This document shows, in pieces, positions 42,476 through 48,075 of a DNA stretch of 64,000 nucleotides. How positions within the stretch are numbered: position 1 is the first letter of the stretch; every line of letters starts with the position of its first letter. Origin of the DNA: Verrucosispora sp. NA02020 (lineage in GTDB: Bacteria > Actinomycetota > Actinomycetes > Mycobacteriales > Micromonosporaceae); assembly GCF_013364215.1 (NCBI RefSeq), contig NZ_CP054923.1, positions 6,634,001-6,698,000 on the forward strand, given 5' to 3'. Under the pieces are notes generated by a model. The model was not told where the DNA came from, did not search any database, and saw only the letters and a program-made list of their open reading frames with translations. The position numbers and the translations under genes are program-made.

Positions 42476-43006
42476 ATGACCAGCGCCATCGACGAGACCA
42501 GCACCCTGCGGGCGGACGTCCGTCGGGTCGAGCCGGCGGACGCCGCCCGGATGCGGGCCCTCCGTCTGGAGATGCTCGCCGACGCCCCGCTGGCCTTCCT
42601 GGAGACGATCGCGGAGGCCGCCGCCCGCCCGCACGCCGAGTACGCTGCCCGCGTCGCCCAGGTCTCGGCCGGCACCCACACCGCCCAGTTCGTGGCGGAC
42701 CCCGGTGGCCGACTGGTCGGGCACGCAGGTGGCGTCGCCCATCCCACGGAACTCGCGGTCACCGTGGTCTACGCGGTCTACGTCACCCCGACGTGGCGCG
42801 GCACGGGCCTGCTCGCATCCCTGATCGACGCGGTCGGCGCCTGGTCACGGGAGTGCGGGCGGCAGGAGCTGATGCTCGAAGTCGTGGTGGGCAACGACCG
42901 TGCCTACCGCGCCTACCAGCGGATCGGCTTCGCCGACACCGGCGTACGGGTGCCGCACCCGACCGTCCCCGCCCTCCGCGAACTCCAGATGCGCCGCCGG
43001 GCGTAG
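42476..43006 (+). CDS. GNAT N-acetyltransferase
   Basis: 176 residues. VRRVEPADAARMRALRLEML opens the fold; VYAVYVTPTWRGTGLLASLIDAVGAW is the acetyl-CoA loop (RGTG); LEVVVGNDRAYRAYQRIGFADTGVRVPHP closes it. The substrate is unknown. ATG 42476 is chosen; a TAAGCA hexamer lies 7 nt upstream but lacks the terminal T. The first of the two conserved-loop hairpins starts 18 nt after its stop. Confidence 0.85.
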   Translation: MTSAIDETSTLRADVRRVEPADAARMRALRLEMLADAPLAFLETIAEAAARPHAEYAARVAQVSAGTHTAQFVADPGGRLVGHAGGVAHPTELAVTVVYAVYVTPTWRGTGLLASLIDAVGAWSRECGRQELMLEVVVGNDRAYRAYQRIGFADTGVRVPHPTVPALRELQMRRRA

Positions 43007-43023: not shown

Positions 43024-43091
43024 TTTCCGGGCAGCCCACCCTGCTCCGGGCGGTCAGGCTTGATCCCGCCGCAGGGTGGGCTGCCCGGAAA
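43024..43091 (+). terminator. 3' hairpin E1 with conserved 26-nt loop
   Basis: A perfect 21-bp stem (43024-43044 with 43071-43091) encloses a 26-nt loop (43045-43070) containing GGTCAGGCTTGATCCC. It follows the GNAT gene (+) by 18 nt. A further GGG/CCC pairing across one bulge extends the stem at its base. The loop is shared with hairpin E2 at 43482-43555, read on the opposite strand. Confidence 0.85.
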
Positions 43092-43224
43092 CCCGACGTG
43101 GTCCGGCTGATCGGGTGGGCCTGCCCTCGGATCGGACCGACCCACTCCCCTCGCCCTGCTCGGTAGCGACGGTCGCGGGCTGGCCAGGGTGTCCGGCGGA
43201 TGCGGCGGGTGCCAGGTCTCCCGC

Positions 43225-43371
43225 GCCGCCTTTGCTCTGCTTCAACCCACGCAACGAACAGGGCGATTCGTTCCTCCTGGCAAATGCCGCACTGGCAAAG
43301 CTATGACAATTGACCAGAACCGGTGCGTTCTCCCGAAAGTATTGCGTGGAGTGAAGCAGAGCAAAGGCGGC
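43225..43371. repeat. 147-bp inverted-repeat element (MITE-like)
   Basis: A perfect 20-bp inverted repeat (43225-43244 with 43352-43371; core TTTGCTCTGCTTCA) continues inward with CCACGCAA matching TGCGTGG after two mismatches, giving ~30-nt ends. The ~87-bp centre is AT-richer than the surroundings and contains no credible gene. Confidence 0.75.
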
Positions 43372-43402
43372 AAGGCGCAGTACCGCCGCCCACCGTCCGC
43401 CT

Positions 43403-43460
43403 CCGCACCGCACCGCACCGCACCGCACCGCCCAAGCTCAACTCAGCTCAACTCAGCTCA
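43403..43460. repeat. Two adjacent short tandem repeats
   Basis: CCGCA is repeated 5.6 times (43403-43430), followed by GCTCAACTCA repeated 2.5 times (43436-43460). Both lie between the inverted-repeat element and hairpin E2. Confidence 0.85.
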
Positions 43461-43481
43461 TGCTCCAACGGTGACCCAGCA

Positions 43482-43555
43482 GGGTTCCGGGGCAGCCTGA
43501 CCCGCGCAGGGATCAAGCCTGACCGCCCGGAGCGGGTCAGGCTGCCCCGGAACCC
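43482..43555 (-). terminator. 3' hairpin E2 with conserved 26-nt loop
   Basis: A perfect 24-bp stem (43482-43505 with 43532-43555) around a 26-nt loop (43506-43531). It follows paaN (minus strand) by ~43 nt. Read on the minus strand, 24 of 26 loop bases equal those of E1, including GGTCAGGCTTGATCCC. On the plus strand AGCCTGACC occurs both in the left stem and in the loop, so alternative pairings exist. Confidence 0.85.
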
Positions 43556-43598: not shown

Positions 43599-45272
43599 CT
43601 AGGCGTGCCGCCGACTCTGCACGATGCGGAAACGGTTGGCGACGTACGCCCCGTCGGTGAGGGCCGAGTTGGCCGCCGCGTTCGCCCCGCTGCCGTGGAA
43701 GTCGGAGAACGCCGCCGACTGGTTCACGAAGACGCCTCCGGTGAGGTTGCCGGACAGGTGCACTCCGACCTCGATCGCGGCGTTCTCGGCGGCGTCCAGC
43801 ACCGCCTCGTCGGTGGAGTAGACGGCTGCCGTGAGCGCGCCCTTCTCCCCCACGGTCGCCCGGAGGATGTCCAGGCTGTGCGTGGTGGAGTCGGTGGCGA
43901 TGGCGAAGGAGATGGGTCCGAACCACTCCCGCGAGTAGGTCGCGGTGTCGCCGGCGTCCAGCTTGACGACGGTGGGCGTACGGACCACCGCGTCCGGGAA
44001 CGACGGGTGCGTGACGGTACGCGACTCCAGCACCGGCGTACCGACCTTGGTGACCTCGTCGAGGCGGTCCAGGACGCCGTCGTTGACGATGGCGCCGGTC
44101 AGCTCGACCCCACGCGCCGGGTCGGCGGTGAGCTTGCCGACGGCGGCGGCGATCCCGGCGGCCACCTCGTCGAAGCTCTTGTGTCCCTGGTCGGTGTCGA
44201 TGCCGTCGCGGGGAATGAGGATGTTCTGCGAGGTGGTGCACATCTGGCCGCTGTAGAGCGTCAGGGTGAACCCGAGGTTGCGGCACATGCCGGCGAAGTC
44301 GTCGGTGGAGTCGACCACCACCGTGTTGAGTCCGGCCTTCTCGGTGTAGACCGCCGCCTGGCGGGCGTTGGCCTCCAGCCAGTCGCCGTACTCGGTGGAA
44401 CCGGTGAAGTCCACGATCTTGACGGCCGGGTGCAGGGCCAGGGTCGAGGCCAGCTTCTCGCCGGGCGCCTCCGGGGCGAGCAGGACCAGGTTCGGGTCGA
44501 AACCGGCCTCGGCGAGCACCTGCCGGGCGTAGCGCACCGTCACGGCCAGCGGGAGTACGGCGCGCGGGTGCGGCTTGACGACCACCGGGTTGCCGGTGAC
44601 CAGCGACGCGAACAAGCCCGGGTAGGAGTTCCAGGTCGGGAACGTGTTGCAGCCGATGACCAGGGCGACTCCTCGCGGCACCACATGGAACGTCTTGGTC
44701 ATCCGCAGCGGGTCGCCCTTACCGGCGGCCTTCTCCCAGGCGGCGGTCCCCGGGTGGCGGGTCATCTCCGCGTACGCGTAGGCGACGGCCTCCAGCGCCC
44801 GGTCGAGCGCGTGCGCGCCGCCGGCCTGGAAGGCCATCACGAATGCCTGCCCGCTGGTGAACTGCACCGCGTTGGCCAGTTCGAAGACGTTCTTGTGCAG
44901 CCGGTCGAGGATCTCCAGGCAGACCCCGACCCGCGCCTGCGGACCGGCGTCCCGCCACGCGGGCAGCGCCGTGGACGCGGCGGCGACGAGCTGTTCGGCG
45001 GTGGCGTGCGGGTAGCGGACGTCCAGCGGGACGCCGAAGGGGCTGGTCTCGGTGGCGACCTGGTCGCCGTCGCCCGGCTGGTCGAGCGGGAAGCCTCCAC
45101 CCAGGTACGCCTCGAATGCGGCCTTGCCGTCGGCGGCTGCGGTCTCGCCGTACACCCGGGGGCTGGGTGATTCCGGGTAGGCGGACCAGTACCCGCGCTC
45201 CGTGATCGCGGTCAGCGCGCGGTCGAGGGTCTCGGCGTGCCTGTCGTACAGGGGGTGCGGGGTCTCCGTCAT
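43599..45272 (-). CDS. paaN: PaaN-type aldehyde dehydrogenase (phenylacetate catabolism-like)
   Basis: 557 residues. The N-terminus TETPHPLYDRHAETLDRALTAI and the ALDH body match stand-alone PaaN proteins: GVALVIGCNTFPTWNSYPGLFASLVTGNPVVVKPHPRAVLP, LAPEAPGEKLASTLALHPAVKIVDFTGSTEYGDWLEANAR, and the catalytic Cys in LTLYSGQMCTTSQNILIPRDG. Oxidation of an aldehyde to the acid with NAD(P) is predicted; PaaN proteins are linked to phenylacetate-type catabolism, but no other paa gene is in the window. ATG 45272 is used; ATG 45281 and 45284 are nearby in frame. Confidence 0.9.
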   Translation of the reverse strand: MTETPHPLYDRHAETLDRALTAITERGYWSAYPESPSPRVYGETAAADGKAAFEAYLGGGFPLDQPGDGDQVATETSPFGVPLDVRYPHATAEQLVAAASTALPAWRDAGPQARVGVCLEILDRLHKNVFELANAVQFTSGQAFVMAFQAGGAHALDRALEAVAYAYAEMTRHPGTAAWEKAAGKGDPLRMTKTFHVVPRGVALVIGCNTFPTWNSYPGLFASLVTGNPVVVKPHPRAVLPLAVTVRYARQVLAEAGFDPNLVLLAPEAPGEKLASTLALHPAVKIVDFTGSTEYGDWLEANARQAAVYTEKAGLNTVVVDSTDDFAGMCRNLGFTLTLYSGQMCTTSQNILIPRDGIDTDQGHKSFDEVAAGIAAAVGKLTADPARGVELTGAIVNDGVLDRLDEVTKVGTPVLESRTVTHPSFPDAVVRTPTVVKLDAGDTATYSREWFGPISFAIATDSTTHSLDILRATVGEKGALTAAVYSTDEAVLDAAENAAIEVGVHLSGNLTGGVFVNQSAAFSDFHGSGANAAANSALTDGAYVANRFRIVQSRRHA

Positions 45273-45324
45273 GCCCGCCATCATGCAACAGGAAGCCCCG
45301 CGATCAGTAGGGGCGTGTCACAGC

Positions 45325-46626: not shown

Positions 46627-47913
46627 TCAGCCGAGCAGGCCGGCGTCGCGGGCGGCCCGCAGCGACGGCTTGATCCGGTGGGTCGGCCCGACCTCGCCCG
46701 CGACCGCGTCGAGCGTCTTGAGCCCCTCACCGGTGTTGTAGACCACCGTCTCCGCGGTCGGGTCCAGCTTTCCGGACTCGACCAGCTTGCGCAGCACCGC
46801 GACGGTCACCCCGCCCGCCGTCTCGGCGAAGACCCCGGTGGTACGCGCCAGCAGCCGCACGGCGGCACGGATCTCGTCGTCGTCGGCGTAGTCCATCCAG
46901 CCGCCGGTCCGGCGTACCGCCTCCAGGGCGTACAGACCGGCCGCCGGGTCGCCGATGTTGAGCGACTTGGCGATCCCGGTCGGCTTGACCGGGGTGATGG
47001 TGTCACCGCCGCCGTGCAGGGCGGTGGCGATCGGGTTGCATCCGGCCGACTGGGCGCCGAAGACCTTCCACCCGCCGGCCGGCACCTCGACCAGGCCGAT
47101 CTCGACCAGTTCGCTGAACGCCTTGTCGACCTTGGTGAGCAGCTCACCGGAGGCCATCGGGATGACCACCTGGGCCGGGATCCGCCAGCCGAGCTGCTCG
47201 GCGACCTCGTAGCCGAGCGTCTTGGAGCCCTCCGCGTAGTACGGCCGGACGTTGACGTTGACGAAGGCGGTGTCCTCGAACTCGTCGGTCTCCACCAGCT
47301 CGCCGCAGAGCCGGTTCACGTCGTCGTACGAACCGTCGATGGCGACCAGCTCGCCGCCGTAGACGGCGGTGGTCACGACCTTGCCCTGCTCCAGGTCGCT
47401 GGGGATGAACACCACCGACGGGGTGCCGGCGCGGGCCGCGTGGGCGGCGACGGAGTTGGCCAGGTTGCCGGTGGAGGCGCAGGCGAACCGGGCGAAGCCG
47501 AGCGCCCGGGCGGCGGTCAGCGCGACCGAGACGACCCGGTCCTTGAACGAGTGGGTGGGGTTGGCGCTGTCGTCCTTGATCCAGAGCGGGCCGGTGATGC
47601 CCAGCTCGGCGGCGAGCTGGTCGGCGGCGACCAGCGGCGTGAAACCGGGGTCCAGGGTGACCCGGGTGGCCGGGTCCTGGCCGGCGGGGAGCAGCGCCGC
47701 GTAGCGCCAGATGTTCTGCGGGCCCGCCTCGATCTGCTCACGGGTCACGGTGGCGAGGGCCGCCGGGTCGTAGTCGACCTCCAGCGGGCCGAAACACTCG
47801 TAACAGGCGTGCTGCGCGGCCAACGGGTAGCGGGCGGAACAGGCGCGGCAGACCAGGGCGCGGGCGGGGCTGGCGGTGGTGTCGATCCCGGTAGGGGCGA
47901 GCGTCGACGTCAT
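46627..47913 (-). CDS. thrC: Threonine synthase
   Basis: 428 residues. An N-terminal zinc-ribbon pair (Cys22/Cys25 and Cys37/Cys40: CRAC, CYEC) is followed by the PLP fold-type II domain with Lys124 in THSFKDRVVSVAL. Other motifs are ACASTGNLANSVAAHAARAG (phosphate cup) and VIPMASGELLTKVDKAF. It converts O-phosphohomoserine to threonine. The start ATG (47911-47913) is preceded by GAGAGGA inside the P1 helix of a SAM-I riboswitch, so SAM should shut off translation. It is not in an operon with hom or thrB here. Confidence 0.96.
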   Translation of the reverse strand: MTSTLAPTGIDTTASPARALVCRACSARYPLAAQHACYECFGPLEVDYDPAALATVTREQIEAGPQNIWRYAALLPAGQDPATRVTLDPGFTPLVAADQLAAELGITGPLWIKDDSANPTHSFKDRVVSVALTAARALGFARFACASTGNLANSVAAHAARAGTPSVVFIPSDLEQGKVVTTAVYGGELVAIDGSYDDVNRLCGELVETDEFEDTAFVNVNVRPYYAEGSKTLGYEVAEQLGWRIPAQVVIPMASGELLTKVDKAFSELVEIGLVEVPAGGWKVFGAQSAGCNPIATALHGGGDTITPVKPTGIAKSLNIGDPAAGLYALEAVRRTGGWMDYADDDEIRAAVRLLARTTGVFAETAGGVTVAVLRKLVESGKLDPTAETVVYNTGEGLKTLDAVAGEVGPTHRIKPSLRAARDAGLLG

Positions 47914-47922
47914 GTCCGAGTC

Positions 47923-48056
47923 CTCTCATCTTCCCCCACATCGCACCCTGCGGCGGGGACGGAATTGGCACCTGCCCCACGGGACGCTCAGCGATGAGCG
48001 CGCGGGGTGGTTGCCGGGGCGTCTTCGGGCCGTATCCCTCAGCCCCTCTGGATGAG
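47923..48056 (-). ncRNA. SAM-I (S-box) riboswitch controlling thrC
   Basis: Read on the minus strand from 48056, CTCATCCAGAGGGGCTGAGG is followed by GGCCC, then CCCCGGCAACC, later GGTGCCAATTCC and finally GATGAGAG. These are the conserved SAM-I core segments (kink-turn, GGCAACC junction and GTGCCAATTCC). P1 forms between CTCATC at the 5' end and GATGAG at the 3' end (47925-47930). The 3' P1 strand overlaps the thrC Shine-Dalgarno GAGAGGA, and only ~10 nt separate it from the ATG with no room for a terminator. Control should therefore be by blocking translation when SAM is bound. Confidence 0.93.
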
Positions 48057-48075
48057 GTATTCAGTTGTGCCGCCG

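Follow-up and report, generated by a model that had tools for sequence, protein, structure and literature searches.

In the 64,000-nt stretch of Verrucosispora sp. NA02020 analysed here (the window), two convergent genes are each followed by a long hairpin, and the two hairpins share nearly the same loop on stems of unlike sequence, which raises the question of what kind of element they are and on which strand that element is recognised. The features concerned are as follows.

42476..43006, plus strand: GNAT acetyltransferase gene (PF00583), upstream of E1
43024..43091, plus strand: E1 hairpin, with a 21-bp stem and a 26-nt loop (43045-43070), 17 nt past the GNAT stop codon
43035..43080, minus strand: putative strand-specific module of E1 (loop and inner 10 bp), proposed from the family-level mismatch asymmetry, boundary approximate
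43052..43066, plus strand: loop core of E1, GGTCAGGCTTGATCC
43482..43555, minus strand: E2 hairpin, with a 24-bp stem and a 26-nt loop (43506-43531), 43 nt past the aldehyde dehydrogenase gene
43496..43541, plus strand: putative strand-specific module of E2 (loop and inner 10 bp), proposed from the family-level mismatch asymmetry
43510..43524, minus strand: loop core of E2, GGTCAGGCTTGATCC
43599..45284, minus strand: aldehyde dehydrogenase gene (PF00171; named paaN in the first-pass annotation), upstream of E2

The geometry described in the first-pass annotation was reproduced in full, including the identity of 24 of the 26 loop bases, the unlike but still paired stems, and the position of each hairpin 3' of its gene in the same sense. 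Both hairpins fold better than any of 200 shuffles (z -7.80 for E1 and -8.36 for E2), and a covariance model derived from 31 copies matches the window at these two sites alone, with 89.3 bits for E1 and 100.1 bits for E2 (both being among its 31 source sequences) and lower scores on the other strand of each. No Rfam 15 family scored above its gathering threshold at the window hairpins or at those of 18 further loci, the sub-threshold matches being mostly miRNA precursors, and a search for hidden RNA genes returned no tRNA in 33 loci (ARAGORN) and only two TPP riboswitches in 18 loci (Rfam). No description of such an element was found in the literature searched, which was a limited collection. 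The reading favoured here, with a probability of roughly 0.4, is that E1 and E2 are copies of a dispersed module, a strand-specific hairpin of about 46 nt, which caps hairpins already in place and is spread by some agent.

E1 and E2 are not an isolated pair. Their own genome (7.28 Mb) holds 26 matches to the core GGTCAGGCTTGATCC at up to two mismatches, of which 13 are exact, none has one mismatch and 13 have two, against 12 matches and no exact one for a reversed-core control. A long hairpin underlies all 13 exact cores, with differing stems, and the prospect that no further copies exist, on which the first-pass annotation had made its proposal depend, thereby fell away. Six of the 13 two-mismatch cores read GGTCACGCTCGATCC; five of these represent a different hairpin family and one lies inside a called gene. 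A repeated hairpin family of the same genome (L017, L018, L021, L024, L025) reads AAGGTCACGCTCGATCC(T/A)GGATCGAGTGG and has a frozen stem and a variable loop, which is the mirror image of the design of the family studied here.

For the family as a whole, copies were taken from fetched loci by the core at up to one mismatch, with duplicates and matches near locus ends excluded and uncounted; after 11 stemless core matches had been dropped, 307 copies in 123 locus groups remained, with stems that covary across the set. Among 31 aligned copies, two-sided changes occur in 23 of 24 pairs and 95.8% of the cells are paired, versus 65.2% after shuffling and at most 53.4% after sliding, so that the compensatory stems first seen in two sequences represent real covariation. 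The nearest orthologous copies (groups of at least three, inner 22 positions, up to six differences) show 92 two-sided differences that are still paired, 51 one-sided differences that break a pair and 6 one-sided differences that yield a wobble, counts that are not all independent. That orthologous copies persist while two-sided changes occur in place suggests that resident copies are either under selection or maintained by template switching. The tip is nearly frozen, the exact 15-mer being present in 300 of the 307 copies, though that 15-mer itself drew most of them; two variants, TCTGGGC...CCCGAC (5 copies) and TCCAGGC...CCTTCC (3 copies), are altered on both sides of the tip helix.

Template switching in replication, which is able to create and maintain hairpins (PMC8794818, in excerpt), could keep inverted repeats perfect in an element that has no function, with the tip spreading by recombination between hairpins, and the tandem and partial duplications found in the family are in line with such a process. 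It leaves unexplained, however, both the near-frozen tip, for which the way in which copies were drawn has to be kept in mind, and the mismatch asymmetry tied to the loop strand that is described below, and it is considered highly unlikely. At one locus (L316:1480-1680), the tip and right arm recur in partial tandem repeats with a period of about 59 bp, which suggests replication slippage at the element.

The family consists of dispersed extragenic palindromes with a marked preference for gene ends. With genes called by a GC3-based script, which called few genes in low-GC hosts, 85 of the 123 locus groups are found no more than 200 nt past a same-sense stop codon and 4 are farther away; the others are near an antisense 3' end only (10), between divergent genes (7), over a called gene (5), geneless (2) or otherwise placed (10). 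The same-sense 3'-end bias anticipated from E1 and E2 is thus borne out, the median distance from stop codon to hairpin being 19 nt in the 222 copies whose left gene runs in the same sense. Where both neighbours were called (100 groups), the strands of the left and right genes are +- in 48, ++ in 30, -- in 14 and -+ in 8. Copies also occupy tight gaps between co-directional genes, in sense in six groups and reversed in three; operons were deduced here from spacing, and the gene names are presumptive assignments from the protein sequences. In Micromonosporaceae, one six-copy group lies in sense 1-8 nt past rpoB and ahead of rpoC; genome G386 carries copies in the pdxS-pdxT and rapZ-yvcK gaps (sense) and in the grpE-dnaJ gap (reversed), and genome G543 carries one, reversed, in the rpoB-rpoC gap.

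These positions bear on the terminator family that had been offered as one explanation, and that option was not supported. A U-tract is absent, T amounting to 10-28% at each of the first 30 downstream positions in 181 copies, and judging from their location between co-directional genes, rpoB-rpoC in sense included, the copies are unlikely to act as strong terminators. In the flank profiles of 181 copies no base exceeds 59% at any flank position, and the sense-strand flanks are G+T-rich for at least 120 nt downstream, that is, C+A-rich on the opposite strand. A sense hairpin could nevertheless protect, process or end the mRNA of the upstream gene, with a protein or small RNA reading the apical hairpin. 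Such an mRNA element stays the main rival because of its position just past same-sense stop codons and the persistence of orthologous sites with two-sided stem changes, and G.U pairs are used in the sense fold of the tip. The absent U-tract and the sense copies between rpoB and rpoC count against it, as do the inner-stem mismatches, and it is judged unlikely.

Stem mismatches were counted, once per locus group, in 275 of the 307 copies; the other 32 were set aside because of their loop offset, their length or a mismatch count above five. Read in the sense used by the first-pass annotation, the stems hold 75 A.C and 16 G.T mismatches in all (p 3e-10). The inner 10 bp, a limit chosen after the per-position table had been seen, contain 51 A.C and 2 G.T, and the outer 10 bp 24 and 14 (Fisher 5e-5); without positions 6 and 7 the inner counts are 22 to 1. 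The comparisons of C.T with G.A (23 to 3 inner, 6 to 9 outer) and of C.C with G.G (10 to 4 inner, 5 to 11 outer) go in the same direction. Since a constrained sense RNA would tolerate G.U, the excess of A.C makes the opposite strand look constrained, and the sense strand as read in the first-pass annotation does not seem to be the one under pairing constraint, wobbles being tolerated on its complement instead. The A.C to G.T bias is equal in copies that are not in sense (19 to 4) and in sense copies (53 to 11), and therefore belongs to the element, namely to its loop strand, and not to the gene. On these sequence patterns, the wobble-tolerant strand looks like the one antisense to the upstream gene in most copies, and the constrained strand would be minus for E1 and plus for E2. 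A replication-strand effect was rejected, since the copies of the own genome are split 2 plus and 3 minus over the first contig half and 4 plus and 4 minus over the second (with the origin assumed near the contig ends).

Transcription of the other strand could likewise yield an RNA, antisense to the upstream gene, that folds into the hairpin and acts in cis or trans. The strand asymmetry of the mismatches and the C+A-rich flanks on that strand agree with this possibility, and the right-hand gene is convergent in 50 of the 83 sense groups with a called right gene (median 157 nt), so that read-through antisense RNA is possible there. In the other 33 groups, however, the right-hand gene is co-directional, and a -10-like motif occurs in the 120 nt downstream at 0.019 per 100 nt on the antisense strand versus 0.106 on the sense strand; an antisense RNA is regarded as quite unlikely.

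The module reading draws on sites at which the tip alternates with plain hairpins. For the rpoB-rpoC gap, 62 loci were assembled: 60 plus L145 and L248, two loci chosen because they bear the tip, of which L248 comes from another order. Of these, 59 were parsed, three being dropped for an unrecognised rpoC start. A plain hairpin was found in 45 of the 59, the tip in sense in 9, the tip reversed in 2, and no or a weak hairpin in 3. The plain hairpins have a 4-nt loop in 33 of 45 cases and contain 9 A.C and 14 G.T mismatches under a neutral score, without a bias of the inner-stem type, a count that depends on the score (23 G.T and 3 A.C with a score favouring G.T). Two pairs of closely similar loci show presence and absence at one site with intact flanks. 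In the first, L412 and L410, the apex carries an indel of 44 nt and only 2 further bases out of 77 differ; in the second, L416 and L374, the apical indel measures 39 nt and 6 further bases out of 80 differ. The short direct repeats GGCC and GGG occur at the indel ends, so that the empty sites may be deletions, and the TCA loop of L416 hints in the same direction; the reversed copies (L397, L248) and the scatter over genera favour several independent gains. For the cdd-deoA gap, 28 of 30 fetched loci were parsed (L455 and L456 excluded), of which 13 carry the tip by exact core, one carries a variant tip (L449) and 14 lack it. Nine of these 14 tipless loci have no stem above 9 bp, indicating that the whole hairpin and not merely the cap is missing there, and the remaining five show other pairing. 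A search of the own genome for a plain GGTTTCCGG...CCGGAAACC hairpin found none, so that the outer arms look element-specific there; for lack of any plain hairpin with those arms, the idea that a bare loop had been inserted into this genome's ordinary terminators was rejected.

Under the module reading, each copy would comprise a 26-nt tip that hardly varies, together with about 10 bp of stem that is free to vary as long as it stays paired, and would be recognised as a folded single strand, solely on the strand reading GGATCAAGCCTGACC, which is mostly antisense to the upstream gene. It may cap hairpins just 3' of stop codons, intra-operon ones included, and be gained and lost there as a non-autonomous element that spreads within and between genomes, served by a putative agent. 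Mobility, single-stranded DNA as the recognised form and the agent itself are what we infer from the alternation and the asymmetry; no transposition event was observed, nor was any mobilising gene found. As for the options in the first-pass annotation, a structured, repeated element with a conserved loop, compensatory stems and a 3' bias holds, and of the identities offered for it a hairpin mobile element fits best.

The taxonomic distribution is dense near the source and patchy beyond it. Of 151 genomes from the genus, 131 contain the exact 15-mer, with at most 21 copies each; at family level it is present in 48 of 150 genomes, spanning 17 of 44 genera, and the reversed 15-mer was found in none in either scan. 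At the level of the order, 15 of 121 genomes match the covariance model, 4 of them outside the family; an exact 17-mer matches 5 of 394 genomes at class level, 2 of these from outside the order, and 2 of 296 at phylum level, both belonging to the own genus. These counts are lower bounds, as exact patterns overlook variants. In a scan of named genomes that returned at least 120 stretches, the matches listed beyond Micromonosporaceae are Trueperella bonasi, an Actinomycetaceae MAG, another actinomycete MAG and two proteobacterial MAGs; the last two (alphaproteobacterial and deltaproteobacterial; L237, L243) lack a stem and were discarded together with nine other core matches. T. bonasi, one of whose two copies has a poor stem and was left out of the 307-copy set, and the Actinomycetaceae MAG share an identical tip on unrelated stems, and more generally the identical core sits on unrelated stems in 4 genomes from other families of the order and 2 from other orders. 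Fourteen copies occur in the distant genome G490, and the ones inspected there are built on stems related to one another, several being arranged in tandem at spacings of 115-163 bp; in its congeners G510, G662, G678, G725 and G740 an exact 17-mer was not found. Outside the family, the element is thus rare and patchy, with unrelated stems. A TPP riboswitch adjoins the element in T. bonasi (L136:3042-3145).

A plasmid search with 671 nt spanning the E1/E2 pair gave no match, E2 gave only weak partial matches to phage and plasmid sequences (Nonomuraea, Streptomyces, phage), of which the 21-nt Nonomuraea match lacks such a hairpin, and the single match in an IMG/VR scan has no stem. It is conceivable, although doubtful, that the family represents a new class of mobile DNA, in which a noncoding hairpin of about 46 nt with a near-invariant tip enters the exposed apices of 3'-end and intercistronic hairpins on one strand by means of a putative single-strand recombinase and crosses actinobacterial orders while its stem drifts.

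Several known systems resemble the element in part. In integron attC sites the bottom strand folds and the site lies at a gene 3' end, with conserved boxes at the stem base and a variable tip; compared by description, the folded bottom strand and the 3' position are shared, whereas the element studied here has the reverse arrangement of base and tip. The M. tuberculosis terminator model TRIT, from the RNIE paper of Gardner et al. 2011, reportedly describes a lineage-specific repeated hairpin after genes that was found with a covariance model. The likeness to TRIT, drawn from descriptions and not from sequence comparison, is that of a lineage-specific repeated post-gene hairpin, but the element studied here has no U-tract and occurs inside operons. 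The TRIT model was used in one further study (PMC3526491, in excerpt). I-shaped (U-less) terminators, GC-rich stem-loops at transcript ends of S. clavuligerus, also lack a U-tract, but their loops are of 4 to 8 and the excerpt of that source mentions no conserved loop (PMC8269248).

REP sequences are the closest in kind, being short dispersed extragenic palindromes, partly clustered, that are recognised as single-stranded DNA by RAYT, with stems of 5-13 bp in the GTAG family and 8-9 bp in the CGTC family and a tag at one end (PMC3733652, in excerpt). The element studied here is likewise a short dispersed extragenic palindrome with some copies clustered, yet it combines a conserved tip with a variable stem mostly of 23-27 bp, in contrast to the short stem and end tag of REP. 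Movement of a REP-type element by a Y1 (RAYT/IS200-like) transposase would be consistent with the extragenic palindromes, the 3' location and the strand-specific folding, all of which are REP-like in the same excerpt (PMC3733652). Against it, no GTAG or CGTC tag was found at the stem base, with no flank base above 59% in the 181 copies, and the Y1 transposase domain PF01797 was detected in none of 15 genomes, 6 of them carriers of the element, versus 5 of 14 control genomes. As both the tag and the transposase fail, the element does not appear REP/RAYT-like in its machinery, and this origin is extremely improbable.

The family studied here reverses the usual design of bacterial palindromic repeats, with the tip frozen and the stem free, and its many natural replicates allow the constrained strand of a hairpin to be asked for, the answer in this case contradicting an mRNA reading that seems obvious at first. 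Should the module be mobile, common soil actinobacteria would contain an enzyme, still to be found, that acts on hairpin tips; if it is not, hundreds of gene ends, including rpoB-rpoC, bear an unlisted regulatory structure.

Other repeats and regulatory elements were observed in and around the locus. Between E1 and E2, a 147-bp stretch of 56% GC (window 43225-43371) lies within 30-bp inverted repeats that are 93% complementary, and it looks like a MITE-type insertion. At the 3' ends of paaN genes, a different palindromic family, GGGGCCCCTTCTTAACGCCTCCGGTAGAGGAGGGGCCCC-like, occurs in 9 of 30 loci (L072, L075, L078, L079, L082, L089, L090, L091, L094). In addition, a SAM riboswitch (RF00162, 72.6 bits) is located at window positions 47923-48058 on the minus strand, directly upstream of a PLP-dependent enzyme gene (46627-47913, minus strand) that we take to encode threonine synthase.
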